Part shown: one piece after another, positions 22,355 through 28,054 of the stretch
Position numbering within the stretch: the stretch's first letter is position 1
Layout: every line of letters begins with the position of its first letter
Assembly: GCA_019695115.1 (NCBI GenBank)
Contig: JAIBAP010000062.1
Location: forward strand, 1 to 33,644
Source: Caldilineales bacterium
GTDB taxonomy: Bacteria > Chloroflexota > Anaerolineae > J102
Length of the DNA stretch: 33,644 nt
Direction: 5' to 3'
Program-made: the position numbers and the translations under genes
The notes under the pieces: generated by a model
Databases searched by the model: none
Seen by the model: only the letters and a program-made list of their open reading frames with translations
Told to the model about the DNA's origin: nothing

Positions 22355-22361
22355 AATGACT

Positions 22362-23249
22362 ATGGCAGAATCGATTCTCGAACCACCAACCAGGGAGATG
22401 GAGGCTGCCGTGCGCGTGATCGCCCGGGTGAAGCTAGAGCCGGCGCCGATTCCGGCTGTCTCTGAGGCGGGTACTGATGGAGAGGCGCCAGACGAGGTGC
22501 CAGAGGCCTTTAGAGACGCCTTCGCAGGCCAGGAGAACTTGCCGCTTTATTACCTCCCTGTTCCCGACATCTCCCATCTGATTACAGAGGATGATACACC
22601 CGTGGACAATATCTTCTCGGAGAAACAGCAGCGCCTCCTGGTCGCACCCCTGTATTCCAGTTGGCAAAGCGGGCGCCCCTTCGCGGCCTTTGCCAATGTG
22701 GGCATCTACTCCGCCATCAATCGGGCCGTCATCGTCCCCGATGCTTTTCTGAGCCTGGATGTGAAAACGCCCAACGACGTGTGGGCCAAGCGAAATCGTT
22801 GTTACCTGCTTTGGGAATACGGGAAACCGCCCGAAATTGTGATCGAGATCGTCTCGAACAAAAAGGGGGGTGAGAACGATGTCAAAATGGCCGAGTACGC
22901 CCGCATGGGCGCCTCATTCTATGCGGTTTTCGACCCCCAAAAACTGATCCAGAGCGAACCACTGATTGTGTATGAGAGGCGTGGCGAGAAGTTCGTGCGC
23001 AGGGAAGATGCACAGCTCGGCGACACCGGCCTGGGGCTGATCATCTGGGAAGGCGCCTACGAAGGCGTGGAACAACAATGGCTGCGCTGGTGCGATGCGA
23101 CCGGCGCCGTCATTCCCACCGGCAAAGAGCGCGCAAACCAGGAGCGGCAACTGGCCGAACAAGAACGGCAACGAGCTGAGCAGGAACGCCAGAGGGCCGA
23201 ACGCCTGGCCGCTCAACTCCGGGCCTTGAACATCGAGCCTGAAGCCTAG
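22362..23249 (+). CDS. Uma2-family putative nuclease with C-terminal coiled coil
   Basis: 295 residues. The Uma2 core (about residues 60-225) includes AVIVPDAFLSLDV, PPEIVIEIVSNKKGGENDVKMAEYARMGASFYAVFDP. This provides the Asp, Glu-x-Val and Lys arrangement of a PD-(D/E)xK-like nuclease fold. The N-terminal NLPLYYLPVPDISHLI and GRPFAAFANVGIYSA also fit the family. The final 40 residues form a charged coiled coil (repeated AEQERQRAEQERQ). Family members are numerous in Cyanobacteria and Chloroflexota and the role is not established; the name endonuclease is by fold. It begins the 22-30 kb plus-strand run and has its own promoter. Confidence 0.88.
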   Translation: MAESILEPPTREMEAAVRVIARVKLEPAPIPAVSEAGTDGEAPDEVPEAFRDAFAGQENLPLYYLPVPDISHLITEDDTPVDNIFSEKQQRLLVAPLYSSWQSGRPFAAFANVGIYSAINRAVIVPDAFLSLDVKTPNDVWAKRNRCYLLWEYGKPPEIVIEIVSNKKGGENDVKMAEYARMGASFYAVFDPQKLIQSEPLIVYERRGEKFVRREDAQLGDTGLGLIIWEGAYEGVEQQWLRWCDATGAVIPTGKERANQERQLAEQERQRAEQERQRAERLAAQLRALNIEPEA

Positions 23250-23275
23250 GGCCGTTGGCAGTCCAGACTCCAGCC

Positions 23276-24010
23276 ATGTCGCCAGGCCACACCCCTCAAC
23301 GCGAAATGCCTTCGCCGCAGGATGCCGCCCGGCTCTTGCTGCAACTCCGGCGCCGGCAGGAGATGAGTCATCGCCACATCGAGGGCGATAGCATCGCGCC
23401 GCAACTGGCGTTGTTCCGGGCCTGGCAATCGCAACGGCTGGCGACCACACACGCCGATCTCTTGCAGAACCCGCGCTACCGCCCGGCCTGCCTGTTCTTC
23501 CTCGAAGACATCTACGCGCCCAAGGACTTCAGCCAGCGTAATCACGACATCGTGCGTATGCACGACTTCATGCTGCGTTTCCTCCCCGCCCGCCTCATCC
23601 GCACCCTCACCCTGGCCATCGAACTAAACACCCTGACCGAGACGCTCGACGAGGCCCTGTTGTCGGTGATGGTAGACCAGCTGGGGGTGAAGGACAGCAT
23701 CACGCAAGCGCACTATGCCGAAGGCTACCGTCTCTGCCATAACTACGACGAACGCAAGCGGCAGATCGACCTGATCATCGAGGTGGGGCATGGCCTCGAC
23801 CGCCTGACCCGCCTGCCGCTGGTCGGTTGGACGCTGCACATGGCCCGCGGCCCGGCCCACCGCGGGGGGTGGCAGGAGATGCAGGGCTTTTTGGAACGCG
23901 GCTTCACGGCCTTCAAACACATGCACGGCGCCCAGGAATTCCTGAGCCTCGTCCAGCGCCGGGAGATGGACATCCTCGACCGCATCTTCGCCGGCGCCAA
24001 TGAACTCTAA
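23276..24010 (+). CDS. conserved hypothetical protein
   Basis: 244 residues, start at the ATG 26 bases after the Uma2 stop; an in-frame TTG at 23255 is less likely. The protein is all-helical, with no signal peptide or membrane segment. A stretch CLFFLEDIYAPKDFSQRNHDI (about residues 72-92) is, as I recall, the hallmark of an uncharacterised bacterial family. Other features are NTLTETLDEALL, YAEGYRLCHNYDERKRQIDLI and a C-terminal HMHGAQEFLSLVQRREMDIL with several His and charged residues. I cannot assign a function. The next gene has an ATG inside its final codons but most likely starts after its stop. Confidence 0.8.
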   Translation: MSPGHTPQREMPSPQDAARLLLQLRRRQEMSHRHIEGDSIAPQLALFRAWQSQRLATTHADLLQNPRYRPACLFFLEDIYAPKDFSQRNHDIVRMHDFMLRFLPARLIRTLTLAIELNTLTETLDEALLSVMVDQLGVKDSITQAHYAEGYRLCHNYDERKRQIDLIIEVGHGLDRLTRLPLVGWTLHMARGPAHRGGWQEMQGFLERGFTAFKHMHGAQEFLSLVQRREMDILDRIFAGANEL

Positions 24011-24023: not shown

Positions 24024-27000
24024 ATGCCATCGCTGTCCCTTTCTGACTTCCCCCGCCCACCCGAAGACAACGGGCGCGGCGTGCACTGGACGGTCAACGT
24101 CTATCCGCCTGATGCGGCCACGATGCAGCGTTGGATCGAGCACCTGAAGGCCCTGCAGATCAAGTGGCTCAAGCTGCTGGACGATTCCGGCGGCTCGTCG
24201 GCGCCGTTGGTGCGGGCGCTGATCGAGAACGGCATCATGCCGGTCGTGCGCCTCTATCGTGAACACCCCAATCCCGGCCATCTCGACGGCCGCGGCCAGG
24301 TGGCCGTGCGCACGCTCATCGCCGCCGGCGCTCGCTACATCGAGACCAACAACGAACCGGACCTGCCCGCCGAGTGGGAGGACAACCACCGGCCCGCCAA
24401 CTGGCTCGACATCGTCGTCGACAACTTCATCTGGGATGCCGATTTCATCCTGGGCGAAGGCGGCCTGCCGGCCTTCCCAGCCATGGGGCCTGGCAACAAG
24501 AGCAACGGCATCGAGCGGGTGGTGCAAAAGGGCCGCAAAGACCTCTTCGAGCGCGGAGCCTGGGTGGCCATCCACAACTACACCCTCAACCACCCCCTCG
24601 ACTATCCCTCCGACCCGGTCAACCAAAGCGGCCAGCCGTTGACGGCAGAGGAATACGAGGCCCTGAAGGCATGGCAATACAGCCATCTCACGCCCGAACA
24701 GGCCGAACAGCACGGCATCAGCCGCGAAGACTACTTCAAGTATCAGAACTGGGCCTGGGATGGGCGCACGCTGGAGATGGTCAACGAACTGCGGGCGCAA
24801 AGCAAGAACCCTGGCCAGACGATCTTGCAGGATGCCAACTGCTTTCGCGCCTTCGAGTTCTTCGGTCAGCAGATCGAGACCGCGCTCGGCTTTCATGTGC
24901 CGGTGATCAGCACCGAAGGCGGGCCGGTGGTGGGCTGGGGCGATGACCGTCGCTACGCCAAGATGAACCCGGCCACGCAGGCCGAGATGCAGATGGGGAT
25001 CATGCGCTTCATGCAGGATGAAACCCCGCCCTGGTATTTCAGCTGCTGCACCTGGCTGCTGGCCTCGAAACCGCTTGGCGACTTCAACCCCACCTGGGAC
25101 CAGATGTCGTGGACCACCCATGCCTGGGATCAGCAGTTTGGGCTTCAGGGCGAGCTGCCGTTGGTGCAGATGCTGCGCGACACACCCGCCCTCGTCCGCC
25201 ATGAACTGCGCCAGATCGTCAACCCTGGCGCAGTCGAAGGGCTGGTCTCCGACCGGACCGGCGCCCCGCTGCCTGGCCTGAGCCTGCGGCTGCGCCAGGA
25301 CGAAAAGAACATCGCCGCCGTGCTGACCGACATCGAGGGCCGTTATCGTCTGCCGGCGCCGCCCGGCCGTTACGACCTGATCATGGATTGGGTTGGCGCC
25401 GTCGCCCAGGACATCAGCCTCGAGGCCGGGGACGTCGATGTCATCGACCTGCCCGGCTTCGACCCAGCCGGCGCCTTCAGCATCACCGCCATCGTCCGCC
25501 AGCCATCGGGCCAGCCGCAGTCGGGCGTGAATGTGGCCTTGCGACGGCGCGGCCTCAGCCACGCCACGGCCACCAGCGACGCCATCGGCGTCGTCACCTT
25601 CCGGCCTGGCGTGGCCGGCGCCTACGCCCTCGCAGCCGCAGGCGGCAGCGCCATGGTCACGGTCGATCCCGAGCGACCGCTCGCCACAGCCGACCTGACC
25701 GTACCTGCTCCGGCCGGCCAGCGCTACTTCCTGACCACCAAACGCCTGCTGCCCCGCGCCGAAAGCGGCAACGACAGCCTCTTCTTTGGCCGGGTGGTGG
25801 ACGCAGCCGGTCGCGGCCTCAGAAACATCGAACTGGAGATGCGGTGGGTCAACGCCGCGCCGGGGACGACCTTCCCCCGCGCTCGCACCGGCCAGAATCC
25901 CTTCAAACCCGACCCCGATGGCTACTACGATTTCTTCCATTCGCAAGGCGAATTCATGGTGCAGGTCGTCCAGGGCGATTTTCCCGGCGAGACGGCGGAT
26001 GGACTGCTCACCAACATCTCCGGCCGCGAGGGCGAGGCCATCACCTACGAGATCGACTTCCAGCTTCGGGCCGAATCGGCGCCGGTTCCGGCCCAGAGCC
26101 TGGTGACAGGTCGCATCGCTGGCGGTCGCGCCGGCCAATCGGTGAGGCTGTGGAATGCCCAACAACACCGCGACCTTGTCCTCGACCCCACCTGCCAATT
26201 CCGCTTCAGCGAATTGCCGGCGGGCGTCTATGACCTGGAGCTGGCCGGGGTAGGCGTCATCCGGCCCGACCTGACCCTGGATGGCAGCAATCAGATCAAC
26301 CTCGACTTTCCCTTGCAGGGCGCCATCATCGGCCAGATCGCCAACCCGGACCCCGACCAACGCCGCCTCAGCCTCATCTCCGAGAACTACGGTTTCAGCC
26401 GCCACGCCGAACTGACGCCCGACAACTGGTATCGCTTCAGCAACCTGCCGGCGGGCGTTTACCGGGTGGAGATGGGCGATGCCATGCTGGCCGGGCTGGT
26501 GAACGACGGCCTGACCCCTCTGCAGGCGCCCGTGCTCACAATCGGGACCTCGCCGGCGCCCACCAACAGCCTCATTCGCGGCAGCATCCGCACCCCGGCC
26601 GGGCAGCCGGCAACGGCTCTGGCCCTGAATCTTCGACGCGGGGGGCAGCCGGTTGGAATAGCCAGCACAGATAACGGCGGGGCCTTTGCTTTTGGCGGTC
26701 TGGCGGCCGGCGTTTATGACCTGCTGACGGCGGAACAGACCCTGGCCGGCGGCCTGAGACTGGACGGCAGCAACACGGTCGAACTGGCGCTCACCTTCGG
26801 CAGGCAGACGCCCTCCGGCAAGCCGTTGTGGCGCTACTATCTGCTGGCGATGGCCTCCCCCCACCTGACGCCAACGCTCGTGCGCTTGGCCGGCCCCTGG
26901 CTGGCGACGCAGCCGCAGGGTGTGGTCGGTTTCAGCCTGGAGGAAGCGGCGCGGGCCGAGACCGTGGTCGCCATCGGCGATGGCGCCGGCGATGCCGACC

Positions 27001-27113
27001 TGGCCTGGCTGCAAGCGGCCGGTGTTCGAATCGTGGATCGGCGCCACGACCTCTTGACCCTTGCCAACTTGTTGGCGCCCGCCTCCGATCTCGATCGAGG
27101 AGTACGACCATGA
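24024..27113 (+). CDS. GH-A-like glycosidase with tandem carboxypeptidase-regulatory-like domains
   Basis: 1029 residues. The N-terminal 380 or so resemble a clan GH-A TIM barrel: GVHWTVNVYP start, RLYREHP, RYIETNNEPDLPAEW with acid/base Glu about 111 after Asn, and PVISTEGGPVVGW with candidate nucleophile Glu about 298. About five carboxypeptidase-regulatory-like or Ig-like beta domains follow (for example GLVSDRTGAPLPGLSLRLRQ, SITAIVRQPSGQPQSGVNVALR, LFFGRVVDAAGRGLRNIELEM, LIRGSIRTPAGQPA), each with DxxGxYxL-type turns. The C-terminal 90 residues (from GKPLWRYYLL) recur in the next gene. No signal peptide is visible, which is strange for surface-type domains. The substrate is unknown. Its stop overlaps the next ATG as ATGA. 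Confidence 0.85.
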   Translation: MPSLSLSDFPRPPEDNGRGVHWTVNVYPPDAATMQRWIEHLKALQIKWLKLLDDSGGSSAPLVRALIENGIMPVVRLYREHPNPGHLDGRGQVAVRTLIAAGARYIETNNEPDLPAEWEDNHRPANWLDIVVDNFIWDADFILGEGGLPAFPAMGPGNKSNGIERVVQKGRKDLFERGAWVAIHNYTLNHPLDYPSDPVNQSGQPLTAEEYEALKAWQYSHLTPEQAEQHGISREDYFKYQNWAWDGRTLEMVNELRAQSKNPGQTILQDANCFRAFEFFGQQIETALGFHVPVISTEGGPVVGWGDDRRYAKMNPATQAEMQMGIMRFMQDETPPWYFSCCTWLLASKPLGDFNPTWDQMSWTTHAWDQQFGLQGELPLVQMLRDTPALVRHELRQIVNPGAVEGLVSDRTGAPLPGLSLRLRQDEKNIAAVLTDIEGRYRLPAPPGRYDLIMDWVGAVAQDISLEAGDVDVIDLPGFDPAGAFSITAIVRQPSGQPQSGVNVALRRRGLSHATATSDAIGVVTFRPGVAGAYALAAAGGSAMVTVDPERPLATADLTVPAPAGQRYFLTTKRLLPRAESGNDSLFFGRVVDAAGRGLRNIELEMRWVNAAPGTTFPRARTGQNPFKPDPDGYYDFFHSQGEFMVQVVQGDFPGETADGLLTNISGREGEAITYEIDFQLRAESAPVPAQSLVTGRIAGGRAGQSVRLWNAQQHRDLVLDPTCQFRFSELPAGVYDLELAGVGVIRPDLTLDGSNQINLDFPLQGAIIGQIANPDPDQRRLSLISENYGFSRHAELTPDNWYRFSNLPAGVYRVEMGDAMLAGLVNDGLTPLQAPVLTIGTSPAPTNSLIRGSIRTPAGQPATALALNLRRGGQPVGIASTDNGGAFAFGGLAAGVYDLLTAEQTLAGGLRLDGSNTVELALTFGRQTPSGKPLWRYYLLAMASPHLTPTLVRLAGPWLATQPQGVVGFSLEEAARAETVVAIGDGAGDADLAWLQAAGVRIVDRRHDLLTLANLLAPASDLDRGVRP

Positions 27114-28054
27114 CCGATCCGATCAATGACGCCGAAGCCTACGGCGTACGCATCGTCCCAACCTCGGTAGCGCCGGGCGCCGATTACTGGCAGATCACCC
27201 GCGTGCATCACCTGCCGCCGGAGGTGAACAACGGCCGGCATCACCTGTTCTTCGACGCCCTCGACGCCGCCGGACAGCGTGCTTTTGGCGCCCACATCCT
27301 CATCAGGTGGCCCGGCGGCAGCCATGAAGTCATCATCGACAAGCCCTTGCCCGAACCCGGGGCCAACGAGCCGCTATGGGCCAAACAGGTGGTCAGCGCC
27401 GAAGCCCTGGGGCTGCCATCCGACCGGGCCGAAAACCTCCACACCGGCCACCCCGACGAAGCCCCCGGCAACACCCTCTTCCACCACTCGTTCGAGATCA
27501 CCTTCCGCCGCGCCACCGCCGGCCAGCCGGCAGCGGAAAGCGTGATCAGGGGCAGCATCCCTGGCGGGGCCGGGCACACCCTGGTCTTGCGGGCGGAGGG
27601 CGGCAGCGAGCGCATGACGCTGGCAGCCGGCGACGACAGCTATCGTTTCGAGGGGCTGGCGGCAGGCCGCTATACCGTGGCCGACCAGCAGGATGGGCGC
27701 CGGATCGGGCCGGTGGAAGTCAACGGCGTCGACGAAGTCGTCGCCAACTTCCCCGCCCTGCCGGTGGATAAGCCGCTCGGCCACTACTTCCTCTTCGGCC
27801 CGCCCGATCAACCCGCTTCCCGGCTCTATATCGACTTGCTGGCCGAACACCTGGCCACCCGCCGCCTGGCTTTTGGTTTCAGCCCGGCCGACGCCGCCAA
27901 GGCGGCCGGCGTCAGTCTGGTCGGCGAGCACGCCGCCGCCACCCTGGCCGCCCTACAAGCGGCCGGCGTCCAGGTCGAACAGCTGCCCCTTGACCCCGCC
28001 GAACTCCTGAGGGCGCTGATCCCCCCCACGCGCGACATCCTCGCCCGGCCGTAA
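27110..28054 (+). CDS. companion protein with the same C-terminal domain as the glycosidase-like protein
   Basis: 314 residues, coupled to the gene before it by ATGA, with GAGGAG at 27097-27102 seven bases upstream. The N-terminal 145 residues are probably a beta sandwich: DYWQITRVHHLPPEVNNGRHHLFFDALD, IDKPLPEPGANEPLWAKQ, LPSDRAENLHTGHPDE and TLFHHSFEITF. A carboxypeptidase-regulatory-like domain follows (about 148-215, VIRGSIPGGAGHTLVLRAEGG). The last 90 residues (DKPLGHYFLFGPPD, then FGFSPADAAKA and VSLVGEHAAATLAALQAAGVQVE) align with the end of the glycosidase-like protein. No signal peptide or membrane helix is evident. Function unknown; a joint carbohydrate or envelope role with its partner is inferred. 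Confidence 0.83.
   Translation: MTDPINDAEAYGVRIVPTSVAPGADYWQITRVHHLPPEVNNGRHHLFFDALDAAGQRAFGAHILIRWPGGSHEVIIDKPLPEPGANEPLWAKQVVSAEALGLPSDRAENLHTGHPDEAPGNTLFHHSFEITFRRATAGQPAAESVIRGSIPGGAGHTLVLRAEGGSERMTLAAGDDSYRFEGLAAGRYTVADQQDGRRIGPVEVNGVDEVVANFPALPVDKPLGHYFLFGPPDQPASRLYIDLLAEHLATRRLAFGFSPADAAKAAGVSLVGEHAAATLAALQAAGVQVEQLPLDPAELLRALIPPTRDILARP

Follow-up and report, generated by a model that had tools for sequence, protein, structure and literature searches.

Two coupled genes of a Chloroflexota bacterium share a C-terminal domain carried by signal-peptide-free glycosidase-like and amidase proteins

How proteins that look built for the cell envelope could leave the cytoplasm without a signal peptide, and where they act, is the question raised by two adjoining genes of a Caldilineales bacterium (Chloroflexota; Anaerolineae). 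The genes, here called P1 and P2, lie in positions 1 to 33,644 of contig JAIBAP010000062.1 (assembly GCA_019695115.1), a stretch of 33,644 nucleotides that we refer to as the window. A sequence-only reading of the window had described a C-terminal tail common to both proteins and proposed it as a targeting or attachment signal, leaving open export by an unusual route or an intracellular glycan role. In this computational work, we find that the tail is an undescribed, lineage-specific domain family of about 90 residues that comes with a new pair system, and we give an even chance to the explanation that P1 and P2 form an endolysin-like envelope hydrolase set with a Rossmann-like, remotely CWB2-like binding tail.

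The two tails are homologous. Their BLOSUM62 score is 89, against a mean of 28 (s.d. 5.4) for shuffled sequences (z 11), and profiles built from about 30 long-protein and 41 short-protein tails align over their whole length in hhalign with E=1.4e-37, which bears out the shared domain as first proposed, at the same positions and in a profile–profile test. Iterated profile searches also delivered the further carriers that the proposal called for: 83 of the 199 genomes sampled from the class have the tail. Among 226 copies with a complete 3′ end (overlapping loci being counted where their sequences differ), 216 end no more than 25 residues from the C terminus. The tail's carriers are P1-type glycoside hydrolase (GH) proteins, P2-type proteins and Amidase_2 proteins. 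Each of the ten other carriers that we scanned contains Amidase_2 (as does L099), usually directly before the tail and frequently with coiled coils or other barrel-like N-domains. Six tails occur in the window's own genome, on P1, P2, one GH protein (C11) and three Amidase_2-type proteins (C54, C6 and C5). Among the open reading frames listed for the family there is one tail per protein, except for a partial second copy in L100. No meaningful family match to the tail exists in Pfam, NCBIfam or PHROG, and a search for a family name through Pfam, NCBIfam or PDB sequences ended without one, both for the tail and for the second shared domain described below. Two large, signal-less carriers (L214:2657-7264:+ and L099:8917-12981:-) have, besides the tail, several Amidase_2 domains, long stretches of coiled coil and a barrel-like N-domain of undescribed type (YLYGIHDPGGE...IWIIGNE). 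Tail-less, signal-less Amidase_2 paralogues adjoin tail-bearing amidases at L224:6301-8355:+, L299:4886-6958:+ and L215:4978-7005:-, and keep an N-domain with the pattern KLGFYIE...PPVILIHA.DR.LL..IRR.LSPDSFVIGR.

P1 begins with a catalytic domain for which a GH-A-like glutamate pair had been suggested, and the structural model agrees. AlphaFold2 (AF2) predicts a (beta/alpha)8 barrel with a mean predicted local distance difference test (pLDDT) score of 96.1 that matches GH39, GH1 and GH5 structures at Z 18-22, the GH39 enzyme 5jvk (Z 21.8) and PslG 5bx9 (Z 19.7) over about 280 residues. The predicted acid/base is E108 in TNNEPD, after strand 102-104 of the model, and the predicted nucleophile is E295 in STEGGP, within strand 291-298; both are kept in 32 of 36 relatives. 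Since the barrel model and the two glutamates coincide, fold and catalytic residues together make P1, as modelled, a GH-A enzyme. It falls into none of the GH families of Pfam: no Glyco_hydro family matches it at E<1, and the GH profile has no PDB sequence match. It shares with GH39/PslG-type glycosidases the barrel, the glutamate after strand 4 in NEP and the glutamate on strand 7, but differs in its roughly 10-15% identity, in lacking a Pfam GH match and in its accessory domains. PslG of Pseudomonas aeruginosa is a retaining endo-beta-glucosidase (PMC11912335). The domain occurs in 124 of the 199 sampled genomes, and scanning named genomes with the GH profile gave 79 loci, 78 of them titled Chloroflexota (Anaerolineae, Caldilineales, Ardenticatena and others) and one titled ‘bacterium’. 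Amidase_2 and SpoIID are peptidoglycan-active families; Amidase_2 genes adjoin some GH loci, and in L102 the GH domain is fused to SpoIID. In that fusion (L102:264-1886:-) the acid/base glutamate is replaced by Q and the nucleophile position is G.

The two genes are coupled, as had been noticed. Their reading frames overlap through ATGA (27110-27113), and Shine-Dalgarno-like sequences precede both starts (TAAGGAG for P1, with its ATG at 24024, and GAGGAG for P2), so that starts free of a signal peptide are well placed. The sequence-only reading had overlooked a second shared domain: the N-terminal domain of P2 (ND; residues ~6-134, with the motifs RVHHLTPEEN...LHTxHPDE...NTLFHHSF), which recurs inside P1 in a profile search and has no Pfam or PDB sequence match. 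Carboxypeptidase-regulatory-like domains, said to precede the tail in both proteins, are clear in P1, where three PF13620 stretches exceed the cut-off (E 4e-25); in P2 itself the match is sub-threshold (E 0.12), and among 41 P2-type relatives, 20 have a match at E<=0.1. With ND, this domain and the tail common to both, P2 is a version of the second half of P1 that lacks catalysis. The partnership is conserved in many families: where P1 contains ND, a gene for ND plus tail follows in 33 of 35 independent loci, and where a GH-plus-tail protein has no ND, a P2-type gene is next in only 2 of 23.

Neither P1 nor P2 has a signal peptide or transmembrane segment, and no hydrophobic stretch lies at or just upstream of either start, in keeping with the export signal reported missing earlier; here and throughout, signal peptides were judged by hydropathy and by eye, not with a dedicated predictor. 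None of the 70 complete tail-bearing GH proteins has one (the top two hydropathy values come from sequence ahead of the probable start), and neither does any other tail carrier found. Known cell-wall-anchored amidases are exported by signal peptides. Signal peptides are present in 5 of 22 complete tail-less GH relatives, and Amidase_2 proteins of the class with clear signal peptides (L302 and L304) have no tail. The mutual exclusion of tail and signal peptide is real in our sample but is one evolutionary contrast: the GHs with signal peptides all belong to one clade, so we rejected the comparison as statistics and, as a single event, it is no proof that the tail replaces a signal peptide. Some GH and amidase relatives, moreover, lack tail and signal peptide alike; the tail is therefore not the sole feature of signal-less forms. 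The same distribution nevertheless speaks for a C-terminal export signal, in which the tail would be a folded sorting domain for an undescribed Sec-independent secretion machine of Anaerolineae and Caldilineae and would take over from the signal peptide. A lineage-wide domain that is common to unrelated catalytic domains and nearly always terminal fits such a role. We consider it doubtful given the single clade, the proteins with neither feature, the tail's remote likeness to a binding module and the lack of any candidate transporter, the phage sheath gene being missing both from the window's genome and from almost every genome of its family.

The site of action is suggested by the other settings of ND. 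The domain accompanies LysM-like repeats, identified by eye, in two proteins that have a signal peptide (L235 and L237), and it is part of a protein resembling a lipoprotein (L244). It also follows an N-terminal membrane anchor in L158 and, there together with SH3, in L031:10116-11378. A further protein of the window's genome (contig C1, L031:7229-9904:-) has four cyclic-nucleotide-binding domains that a single transmembrane segment and a Pro/Thr linker connect to ND. Because ND sits on exported or anchored proteins, and across the membrane from the cyclic-nucleotide-binding domains, it would lie outside the membrane. The protein on contig C1 looks, from its architecture, like a membrane receptor with ND outside the cell and the cyclic-nucleotide-binding domains in the cytosol, and similar proteins occur at L028, L032 and L033.

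Relatives of the GH domain in phages point the same way. On an IMG/VR contig of a temperate phage, a GH-plus-ND protein is encoded between tape-measure, Dit and tail genes and the integrase (L254:5884-7827:+); on another IMG/VR contig, a GH-only protein lies near the major head protein (L256:5923-7203:+). Both are without signal peptide, the phage GH copies carry no C-terminal tail domain, and the copies at L254 and L255 nest among bacterial GHs. The proteins at L254 and L256 are candidate lysins with a GH-A barrel undescribed in Pfam or PHROGs. From the ND contexts and the phage relatives in structural gene blocks, we infer that an extracytoplasmic, envelope-directed role is the best reading for P1 and P2.

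These observations bear on two other explanations. One, the intracellular role left open at the outset, would have the proteins act on a cytosolic glycan, either a storage polysaccharide or peptidoglycan in AmpD-like recycling; AmpD-type cytosolic amidases exist, and P1 and P2 have no signal peptide or membrane segment. We judge it quite unlikely, as the partners of ND are exported or outside the membrane, the GH domain has homologues with signal peptides as well as its phage relatives, and the set includes surface-type repeats with Amidase_2 and SpoIID partners; the tail-bearing amidases add to the case against it. The other would have P1 and P2 delivered by a contractile injection system or encoded by a resident prophage, in line with the phage relatives of the GH domain and the missing signal peptides. 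We rejected export by injection, since the sheath family (PF04984) is absent from the window's genome (G000) and from nine of ten genomes of the same family, its own included, all of them tail-positive; just one of the ten (G373) has it. A prophage origin was rejected too, because neither P1 nor P2 has a PHROG match, P1 has no match in annotated phages, a degenerate-pattern scan of limited sensitivity found no tail in viral contigs, and the pair is conserved on chromosomes of many families. We regard this pair of explanations as highly improbable. Assignment to a defence system was likewise dropped: P1 and P2 had no PADLOC match, and L218 gave coiled-coil noise only.

What the tail itself might do is hinted at by its fold and by a distant relationship. 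Its model is a beta-alpha-beta-alpha-beta-alpha-beta-alpha domain (AF2 pLDDT 88). Searched against 177,635 PDB sequences, the tail profile finds as best matches the high-molecular-weight S-layer subunits and Cwp8 of Clostridioides difficile (E 3e-4 to 3e-3), all of them CWB2 proteins, and hhalign of the tail against Chloroflexota CWB2 repeats (a set that includes one off-frame row) gives P=1.1e-3, with 20% probability, compared with P 0.07-0.5 for four controls. The weak resemblance to CWB2 seen in the sequence-only reading is thus reproducible, as a sequence likeness confined to about 35 residues; we take it as a lead to a wall-polymer-binding function and not as family membership. Like CWB2 (PF04122; C. 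difficile SlpA and Cwp8, Bacillus subtilis CwlB), the tail is an alpha/beta domain of about 90 residues that occurs with amidases and includes a beta-alpha-beta stretch of the kind V-x-I-x-G-x-x-x-x-V-S ... L-x-x-x-G-x-x-V-x-R-x-x-G. It differs in usually being single, not threefold, within a protein, in falling short of PF04122, which is not among the matches listed for 74 tails, and in having carriers without signal peptide. CWB2 repeats act as an intertwined triad (PMC8881574, PMC5817068), and proteins with one or two repeats are rare (PMC5817068). The usual pseudo-trimer of three adjacent copies, of which each protein here supplies one, invites the explanation that the tail serves for docking or oligomerisation and brings P1, P2 and the tail-bearing amidases into one complex, and the near-strict pairing of P1 with P2, with the same tail on the amidases of one genome, accords with it. 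We think it improbable: GH proteins without ND retain the tail, yet P2 seldom lies beside them, and the CWB2 homology is itself weak.

In the endolysin-like explanation that we favour, P1 and P2 would be co-translated, almost always paired envelope-acting proteins, built like phage endolysins and without signal peptide. P1 would be a retaining GH-A glycosidase cutting a cell-envelope glycan with its two glutamates in a GH39/PslG-like barrel, and P2 its non-catalytic partner, made from the same accessory parts. The tail may attach the pair, and the Amidase_2 proteins of the same cells that also carry it, either to an envelope polymer or to one another, and the proteins might leave the cytoplasm by chance lysis in filamentous cells, by a holin-like leak or through a dedicated or otherwise unknown pathway. 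Lysins released by holins are a precedent for envelope hydrolases free of signal peptides (PMC6403190). Phage endolysins and virion-associated lysins share with the pair the missing signal peptide and the combination of catalytic and C-terminal binding-type domains, and the P1 relatives at L254 and L256 sit in phage structural or lysis regions; P1 and P2, however, occupy conserved chromosomal sites outside any phage region, are larger and paired, and have no holin that we could find. Amidase_2 (NALAA-2) cell-wall hydrolases are close in another way, with tail-bearing paralogues in the same genomes that place Amidase_2 before the tail, but P1 is predicted to be a glycosidase. Nothing specific was found in the literature on Anaerolineae cell-wall amidases or endolysins.

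Several results weigh against this explanation. The fold search with the tail returned only generic Rossmann, TIR and PBP matches (Z<=6.7), for which reason a stronger fold assignment was rejected; CWB2 chains are not among the matches listed, which proves nothing. The matches to CWB2 chains in the PDB have single-domain i-Evalues of only 0.05-0.2, the hhalign probability is low, the likeness is short, and PF04122 has no match at E<=1e-5 in the window's genome despite its six tails. No holin-like gene lies beside the phage GH genes examined or adjoins P1 and P2 in the window, and the relatives lacking both tail and signal peptide count here as well. GH39 and PslG enzymes act on exopolysaccharide or on xylosides and plant glycans, so the glycan that P1 would cut need not be peptidoglycan. 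As for the targeting or attachment signal first proposed, it is plausible; a folded alpha/beta domain on proteins of the envelope-hydrolase type agrees more with attachment than with a signal for export alone, and the exclusion of signal peptides that would favour export comes from one clade. That the tail is the C-terminal targeting domain of an undescribed signal-peptide-independent export or envelope-attachment pathway, serving glycosidases and amidases of Anaerolineae and Caldilineae, is accordingly a tentative proposal.

Table 1. Features of the P1/P2 locus, in window coordinates.
Feature	Position (strand)	Content or basis
P1	24024..27113 (+)	1029 aa: GH-A-like domain, carboxypeptidase-regulatory-like repeats, ND, repeats, C-terminal tail
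Predicted GH-A (beta/alpha)8 catalytic domain of P1	24033..25211 (+)	AF2 model, structural matches, conserved Glu pair
Best PF13620 copy in P1	25233..25448 (+)	Family search; additional copies as far as the tail
ND copy within P1	25695..26063 (+)	Homologous to the N-domain of P2, 5e-29
C-terminal tail of P1 (KPLWRYYLL...)	~26814-27098 (+)	Profile and alignment
P2	27110..28054 (+)	314 aa: ND, one weak carboxypeptidase-regulatory-like domain, tail; no catalytic domain
ND of P2 (HHL...HPDE...NTLFHHSF motifs)	27125..27511 (+)	Profile match
C-terminal tail of P2 (KPLGHYFLF...), small Rossmann/TIR-like alpha-beta domain	~27764-28042 (+)	AF2 pLDDT 88 and profiles
GT-C type glycosyltransferase (PMT_2-like), directly 3′ of P2	28059..30059 (+)	E 2.4e-4, below cut-off

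The surroundings of the pair are less constant. The PMT_2-like glycosyltransferase follows it in 4 of the 26 pair loci with room for that count, and we therefore place it outside the core and rejected it as a conserved part of the system; the minority of other loci where such a gene follows the pair comprises L131, L145, L150, L137 and L143. Upstream of P1 (22323-24010), on the same strand and separated by tiny gaps, lie a Uma2-domain gene (22356-23249) and an unnamed gene for 251 aa (23255-24010), an arrangement that could make this a five-gene operon.

The envelopes of Chloroflexota are multilayered and poorly understood, and how signal-peptide-free surface proteins leave the cell is an open question. 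A 2026 study of Litorilinea aerophila reports that its filaments break, that its envelope is multilayered and that a hook protein at the surface has no signal peptide; the authors suggest signal-peptide-independent secretion for this protein, and their mass spectrometry covers 1,272 proteins from surface-filament fractions (PMC13319060). P1 and P2 are both present in a metagenome-assembled genome that bears this species name, together with a third tail-bearing frame of 1322 aa (L125), so that export and attachment are testable in a cultured organism. The GH-A barrel family, linked to phage structural gene regions, is a candidate for a new kind of catalytic domain in lysins, and the tail provides a defined C-terminal domain that marks a lineage-wide, signal-less set of GH and Amidase_2 proteins, probably envelope-cutting.

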